Assembly: GCF_014836775.1 (NCBI RefSeq)
Contig: NZ_JACSQD010000001.1
Span: 540,185-604,184 of the forward strand
Origin: Arthrobacter gallicola
GTDB taxonomy: Bacteria > Actinomycetota > Actinomycetes > Actinomycetales > Micrococcaceae
Reading direction: 5' to 3'
Length of the DNA: 64,000 nucleotides
Both the position numbers and the translations under genes were made by a program. Shown here piece after piece: positions 40,395 to 40,543 of this stretch. Position 1 is the stretch's first letter, and each line of letters starts with the position of its first letter. The notes beneath the pieces were generated by a model, which was given only the letters and a program-made list of their open reading frames with translations, did not search any database and was not told the origin of the DNA.

Positions 40395-40543
40395 AATGTC
40401 TGGGTGGCCTTTTCTTTGAGAGCTTCAGAAATGGTGGCCGGGCAACACAAACTCCGCAGCGAGGGTTCGGCCTAATCAGTGGTTTGTGAGGCCTCGCCGC
40501 GGCAGCTAAGAAGGAGGTTCTCTGCGCGCACCTGCTCAGACTA
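40395..40543 (-). promoter_or_regulatory. leuA promoter and attenuation leader
   Basis: From right to left: -10 TAGTCT (40538-40543), the leader ORF, then about 77 nt of leader before leuA. RNA complementary to 40492-40502, immediately after the Leu codons, can pair over 11 bp (one G-U) with that from 40454-40464, a hairpin whose formation would depend on where the ribosome pauses. No clear run of T follows, so control could act on translation or Rho rather than an intrinsic terminator. Confidence 0.6.
40472..40531 (-). CDS. Leucine leader peptide of leuA (19 aa)
   Basis: A short ORF on the minus strand upstream of leuA encodes VRAENLLLSCRGEASQTTD with three consecutive leucine codons (CTC CTT CTT). 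The GTG start is exactly 6 nt after TAGTCT, a TANNNT -10, so the leader mRNA probably begins at the start codon. The peptide has the layout of an attenuation sensor: ribosome stalling at the Leu codons would change pairing of the RNA just downstream. Confidence 0.75.
   Translation of the reverse strand: MRAENLLLSCRGEASQTTD

Follow-up and report, generated by a model that had tools for sequence, protein, structure and literature searches.

The leuA leader of the window

In the window, by which we mean the whole stretch of 64,000 nucleotides analysed here, leuA lies on the reverse strand and is preceded by a short leader with an upstream open reading frame (uORF), and the features of gene and leader are listed below in window coordinates.

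38637-40394, reverse strand: leuA, 2-isopropylmalate synthase, the presumed regulated gene (NF002991, 868.7 bits, and TIGR00970, 818.1 bits, both above cut-off)
40382-40386, reverse strand: CGCAC, leuA codons 3-5, candidate base-stem partner of the uORF start GUGCG (40531-40527)
40406-40413, reverse strand: leuA Shine-Dalgarno (SD) region AAAAGGCC, fourth of four GGCC boxes and candidate P4 partner
40436-40440, reverse strand: P2 (pseudoknot) 3' arm CGGCC, from covariation; could pair with the SD box instead (P4)
40454-40464, reverse strand: P1 3' arm CCTCGCTGCGG, from covariation
40468-40472, reverse strand: P2 (pseudoknot) 5' arm GGCCG, inside the P1 loop, from a pairing test and covariation
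40472-40531, reverse strand: 19-codon uORF, very probably leaderless, peptide VRAENLLLSCRGEASQTTD, with the GTG start at 40531 as predicted transcript 5' end and TAG at 40474-40472
40492-40502, reverse strand: P1 5' arm CCGCGGCGAGG, coding for uORF codons C-R-G-E, from covariation
40508-40516, reverse strand: putative sensor Leu codons CTC CTT CTT, candidate 5' strand of a base stem P0 with the leuA SD
40538-40546, reverse strand: extended -10 TGC-TAGTCT (TAGTCT at 40543-40538, TGC just 5'), read from the sequence

Re-reading the sequence found the coordinates that the initial annotation had given for the uORF, the -10, the Leu codons and the 11-bp helix to be exact: 6 nt separate the box TAGTCT from the uORF GTG (40531), the P1 arms form 11 bp with one G-U among them, and the P2 5' arm shares one base with the uORF stop codon, the first of the arm and the last of the codon. 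A consensus scan of 40350-40700 gave no sigma-70-type consensus site. On the same strand, a gene at 40573-42090, whose product presumably resembles a LytR-CpsA-Psr-type protein, judging from its sequence, stops some 27 nt short of the extended -10, so that read-through into leuA is possible.

This leader is a LEU element, and thus of a kind already known. The LEU element of Actinobacteria was described in 2005 by Seliverstov et al. (PMC1262725) and, like the leader of the window, it lies before leuA with a Leu-run uORF, a pseudoknot and no terminator, P1 and P2 being likened to that pseudoknot by its published description, pair-by-pair identity aside. Leader peptides before leuA are indeed known in actinobacteria, as the initial annotation had stated, both from this element and, in the available part of a second report, from a peptide of S. 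lividans (PMC8079986).

Conservation and the leaderless start

The comparison covers 191 distinct leuA leaders, namely that of the window, those of 78 of the 80 loci of one set (L022 and L067, which came without upstream sequence, were left out) and those of further sets comprising 30 loci plus 60 regions among the matches listed, and 30 more loci; L081 duplicates the window and was excluded except in the terminator count, where it represents the window. A uORF with a Leu run is present in the same place in 186 of the 191 and absent from five loci (L041, L177, L151, L153 and L167), and the 186 were split by genome family label into type 1 (n=165) and type 2 (n=21). A chance ORF was considered and rejected.

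The initial uORF picker favoured -10 boxes, and the spacing count was redone without that bonus, with the Leu run as anchor. An in-frame start then lies 6-7 nt after TANNNT in 133 of 165 type 1 loci, against 0/165 and 2/165 for out-of-frame anchors in the same spacing test and none of 2068 control ATG/GTG/TTG triplets upstream of the elements, which establishes the promoter spacing by comparison and, together with the covariation of the helix given below, places the observation well beyond chance. In S. lividans, where the mean -10 to start-site distance is 6.3 nt, the leuA leader MRFGLLLLSCRGEGL is reported as a leaderless transcript without a typical terminator (both from the available part of PMC8079986). 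Taken with this report, the difference between 133/165 and 0/2068 makes it very probable that the window uORF is leaderless, its start codon being the 5' end that the -10 spacing predicts, and this backs the leaderless leucine leader peptide before leuA that the initial annotation had proposed.

Leaderless polycysteine uORF attenuators of mycobacteria were reportedly described by Canestrari et al. in 2020. As relayed in the available parts of PMC9031893 and PMC13236596, these mycobacterial systems share with the window leader a leaderless short ORF and runs of the sensed residue and are said to control operon translation, but they sense cysteine and belong to other genes. Also comparable is LeuL1 of S. 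lividans TK24, that is, the same MRFGLLLLSCRGEGL, which lies before leuA, is leaderless and has no Rho-independent terminator according to the available part of PMC8079986; it differs in belonging to another family, the Streptomycetaceae-like leaders (f6), in which the spacing from the -10 to the start, here ATG, is 9-10 nt instead of 6-7 nt.

Beyond the leaders compared, a covariance model built from the element (match threshold E <= 0.01) matches 192 of 197 genomes of the class, often with 2-4 copies each, whereas the genome of the window has a single significant match, the leuA leader, besides weak ones (E 0.8). An attenuator with neither SD nor terminator, which the initial annotation had called unusual, is on the contrary the standard form in the class and was published as early as 2005 (PMC1262725).

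Terminators in one type of leader

No terminator was found by the consensus scan in 40350-40700, and type 1 leaders have intrinsic terminators in 11/165 cases against 11.35 expected from shuffles, so that comparison establishes the lack of any excess, the earlier remark that there is no obvious T-tract terminator holds, and a classical intrinsic-terminator attenuator was rejected for the window leader. Classical attenuators (trp; ilvB1 of M. tuberculosis, from the available part of PMC13236596) resemble the window leader in a peptide rich in the sensed amino acid and in alternative folds, but they end in a U-tract terminator, of which this leader has none. A known Rfam riboswitch was likewise rejected, since Rfam 15 gave no match at gathering in the window, none at E up to 10 in 40340-40580 and none at gathering in six relatives.

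Type 2 leaders have intrinsic terminators in 19 of 21 cases against 1.85 expected from shuffles. These loci (L146-L150, L152, L154-L166, L168 and L169) all lie upstream of leuA in genomes of the same phylum with the family labels f31, f46, f48, f54, f55, f58, f68, f69 and f80, and their layout is a Leu run, mostly an immediate stop, a short hairpin GGCGAGC..GCUCGCC and then a G+C hairpin with a T-tract. The leaderless start is less general among them, because 6 of the 21 have no TANNNT within 15 nt of the picked start. A search of one literature library found no publication on leucine leader-peptide attenuation in Acidimicrobi.

Leucine codons and the P1/P2 fold

The initial annotation had staked its reading on conservation of the Leu run and of the 11-bp pairing, and both turned out to be conserved. 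Deduplication left 151 loci, of which all have Leu at codon -1 of the run (CTT 119, CTC 28, CTA 3, CTG 1) and 150 have it at codon -2, and the substitutions in these last two Leu codons are synonymous with a single exception, which establishes the Leu coding. In these runs CTT and CTC together account for 84% of the codons of type 1 leaders and for 72% of those of type 2 leaders, compared with 31.5% of Leu codons in the leuA genes of L001-L080. Set against a null of synonymous codons, the actual Leu codons had a median rank of 0.4 and thus brought no clear gain for SD pairing, and SD pairing was rejected as the source of the CTT/CTC bias because the same bias occurs in type 2 leaders, where a terminator replaces that pairing. 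Both CTT and CTC would be read by the GAG isoacceptor, to which the bias may be due, and the leader may therefore sense one particular Leu-tRNA.

Two observations stand beside these counts. The leuA genes themselves use CTG for 60% of Leu, unlike the CTT/CTC-rich putative sensor runs of both types. Also, at L007 (1857-1890) the Leu codons are CTA (LLQLL) and the uORF start UGCAUUUC is complementary to GAAAUGCA across the leuA start codon.

In 95 diverse sequences, 97.0% of P1 cells are paired and 7 of its 11 pairs show changes on both sides, compensatory changes that establish the helix; P2 shows them in 4 of 5 pairs, and the whole-structure measures of P1 plus P2 exceed 500 of 500 shuffles and every slid version. 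Matched P2 arms also pair better than arms permuted within families (p 0.0005, 155 loci; by group p 0.002 in Micro2 and p 0.087 in Micrococcaceae alone), where, as in all pairing tests reported here, p-values are nominal, several segments and families having been tested, and the family labels of L001-L080 were set by hand, so that a few loci (e.g. L054) are perhaps misgrouped. In the Rothia loci L055 and L066 the P2 arms are rewritten as CCCGGGUGU and CUACCCGGG with pairing kept. The 11-bp helix of the initial annotation is thus real but only one part of the element, since P2 and elements reaching the SD and start also belong.

The spacing from Leu run to P1 is likewise established by comparison of 157 type 1 loci (8 of the 165, without a CCG anchor, were dropped from the P1 and spacing counts): the last Leu codon lies 5 nt from P1 in 146/157 and 2 nt in 11/157, and the first Leu base 14 or 17 nt from it in 143/157, with 14 nt in the window. 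A ribosome covers about 12 nt past its A site, and one held on the first Leu codon would therefore end about where P1 starts.

These observations bear on the view preferred by the authors of 2005, namely that the pseudoknot is bound by a regulatory protein, with a helicase-domain protein, ML1624, as candidate, and that the uORF is secondary (PMC1262725). A compact conserved pseudoknot would suit such a protein, as would the authors' interpretation of S. coelicolor mutants (PMC1262725), but Leu coding is strictly kept through synonymous change, the codon register to P1 is fixed, and the same kind of Leu peptide is joined to a terminator in other families. These three facts point to sensing through translation of the Leu codons, and we consider a protein-binding RNA very unlikely.

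What hides the leuA Shine-Dalgarno region and start

Seven leader segments were paired with the SD region of their own locus and, for comparison, with those of other members of the family, and only the Leu run was clearly significant, pairing with its own SD at -7.6 kcal/mol against -7.28 kcal/mol when permuted (p 0.0015). By family this pairing gave p 0.001 in Microbacteriaceae-like leaders, p 0.004 in f6 and p 0.001 in f7, but in Micrococcaceae, the family of the window, it is no better than permuted (p 0.79). Of the other segments, the P1 3' arm was weak (p 0.057), and the P1 5' arm, the loop and the downstream parts were null. In 73 disjoint nearest-relative pairs, used as a guard against shared ancestry, the Leu run paired with its own SD/start better in 43, worse in 22 and equally well in 8 (sign p 0.006), and the control segments showed no such preference (31 vs 31; 36 vs 38). 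Because own pairing prevails here while the controls are null, the comparison supports co-evolution of a putative base stem P0, the Leu run with the leuA SD, at the level of the class, though it is not seen in Micrococcaceae. The base stem of Leu codons and leuA SD proposed in PMC1262725 is to the same extent supported, class-wide and not in the family of the window.

A longer base stem, in which the uORF 5' part pairs with the SD/start, reached a permutation p of 0.0045, but is not claimed because independent pairs gave 38 vs 33, which is not significant. For the first 15 nt of the uORF, where GUGCG can pair with CGCAC in leuA codons 3-5, with the SD/start, the Micrococcaceae permutation gave p 0.0005 and independent pairs over all families were weak (33 better, 29 worse).

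In Micrococcaceae the P2 3' arm CGGCC has two possible partners, the P1 loop (P2) and the SD (P4), and 94.9% of the P4 cells (CGGCC with AAAAGGCC) are paired in 35 Micrococcaceae rows. The covariation of P4 is reached by 48-81 of 500 shuffles and neither proves nor refutes the pairing, because both boxes are nearly invariant in these rows. In Micrococcaceae the competing GGCC boxes are a likelier candidate for the sequestor than the Leu-run stem.

The initial annotation had suggested comparing folds of the leader in the presence and absence of a stalled ribosome, and the answer was divided. In nested folding the mean unpaired probability of the SD in type 1 rises from 0.377 in the free leader to 0.448 when a ribosome sits on the first Leu codon (up in 108/165), and in the window the stall mask takes the SD from 0.46 to 0.59 and the start codon from 0.36 to 0.72; by family, the mask lifts SD accessibility in 23/26 Microbacteriaceae-like leaders, in an unconvincing 24/46 of Micrococcaceae and in 9/20 of the Mycobacteriaceae-like f7. 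Shuffled 5' segments had little effect on the accessibility of the SD (97/165 higher, p 0.054). When P2 is imposed, the SD is predicted to be more accessible during a stall at the first Leu codon than once the ribosome has reached the stop, in 37 of 46 Micrococcaceae.

One could imagine that there is no P0 and that in Micrococcaceae P2 against P4, with the four GGCC boxes, is the sole switch, the stall merely letting P1 and P2 form. The near-invariance of AAAAGGCC and CGGCC, the 37 of 46 leaders just mentioned and the overlap of the uORF stop codon with the P2 5' arm in the window would all suit this, but P2 is predicted to be stronger than P4 in only 22/46 Micrococcaceae, P4 lacks clear covariation, and P4 is inapplicable to those families that lack the fourth GGCC box and in which the Leu run co-varies with the SD. 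As a complete account we regard it as rather unlikely.

The same co-variation bears on Rho-dependent transcription attenuation, by which progress of the ribosome on the uORF would expose or hide a Rho loading site and premature termination would set leuA output. Type 1 leaders have no intrinsic terminator, other families of the phylum terminate after the same kind of Leu peptide (the 19 of 21 type 2 loci), leuA and leuL transcripts of C. glutamicum rise together after 5 min of starvation, a change at the RNA level (in the available part of PMC6892785), and PMC1262725 considers Rho for terminator-less cys and leu leaders, all of which speak for Rho. However, termination alone would not require the Leu run to co-vary with the leuA SD, a pseudoknot that lies immediately before a short SD region fits control of translation, and transcript changes can result from translation, so that we hold Rho to be unlikely and an output at translation more likely than one at transcription.

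Further copies of the element

Twenty regions around further matches were examined, with L215, a main leuA copy, as a check. LEU elements stand directly before leuC in eight of them (L206-L212 and L214), in Microbacteriaceae-like (f4) genomes that also have an element before leuA, and before second leuA-like paralogues in four (L213, L221, L224 and L225); LEU-like elements precede leuB in two (L217 and L223), further ones precede leuA or its paralogues, and L222 has no leucine gene within the piece read. NCBIfam names leuC for L206, L208 and L214, leuB (NF002898) for L217 and L223, and the leuA family for L213, L219 and L221, the downstream genes of the remaining extra copies being named from their sequence. 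The comparison thereby establishes the association with leucine genes. In L217 and L223 the leader peptides, as read from the sequence, have VRIL or LIL in place of Leu-Leu-Leu, and these leaders are perhaps a broader sensor of branched-chain amino acids.

In one literature library, PMC1262725 was the sole publication found on an actinobacterial leuA pseudoknot, and no paper was recognised from title or abstract as describing the leuC and leuB copies. The paper of 2005 covers leuA and one transposase copy and has no leaderless start, no leuC or leuB copies and no terminator-bearing relative, and the leuB and leuC copies, the terminator-bearing relatives and the codon-level geometry were not found in print.

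A proposed leucine-responsive switch and its meaning

We lean, with some reserve, towards the LEU element being a leucine-responsive, leaderless-uORF translational attenuator of leuA; that the ribosome stalls, which way the switch works and that it acts on translation are our inferences. RNA polymerase would start at the uORF start codon, and because the transcript would begin there a ribosome could load early, once the 5' end emerges. When Leu-tRNA is short this ribosome would stall on the Leu codons, covering the uORF 5' part and the Leu run while sparing P1, from which the first Leu codon is 14 nt away, so that the uncovered P1/P2 pseudoknot would be free to form; in this state the leuA SD/start would have no partner and leuA would be translated. 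When leucine is plentiful, the ribosome would reach the stop just past the P1 5' arm and free the uORF 5' part, which would pair with the leuA SD/start (P0) and turn leuA off, and in Micrococcaceae CGGCC would pair with AAAAGGCC (P4), with or instead of P0, to the same effect.

The authors of PMC1262725 reject a leader-peptide mechanism, and the S. coelicolor mutants, in that paper's account, are the main evidence against translational attenuation. However, the Leu codons may double as sensor and anti-SD, and mutating them would therefore confound both roles, which might explain the S. coelicolor paradox.

Furthermore, and more tentatively, for we would not put it at even chances, the LEU element could be a portable leucine-stall switch, in which sensor Leu codons and the first uORF codons hide a target SD/start, a ribosome on the sensor unmasks it, and the decision is made once, co-transcriptionally. 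Such a switch would have spread over leuA, leuC, leuB and leuA paralogues, and with the same sensor joined to a terminator elsewhere there would be one sensor with two interchangeable outputs.

How the LEU element controls leuA has counted as a paradox since 1999 and as unexplained since 2005, yet the element is in nearly every genome of the class, and the comparison narrows the question to a few pairings open to test, P0, P2 and P4. The leuC and leuB copies and the terminator-bearing relatives are natural experiments on how such a sensor comes to act on either translation or transcription, and if the reading is right it would be relevant to the engineering of leucine producers among these bacteria.
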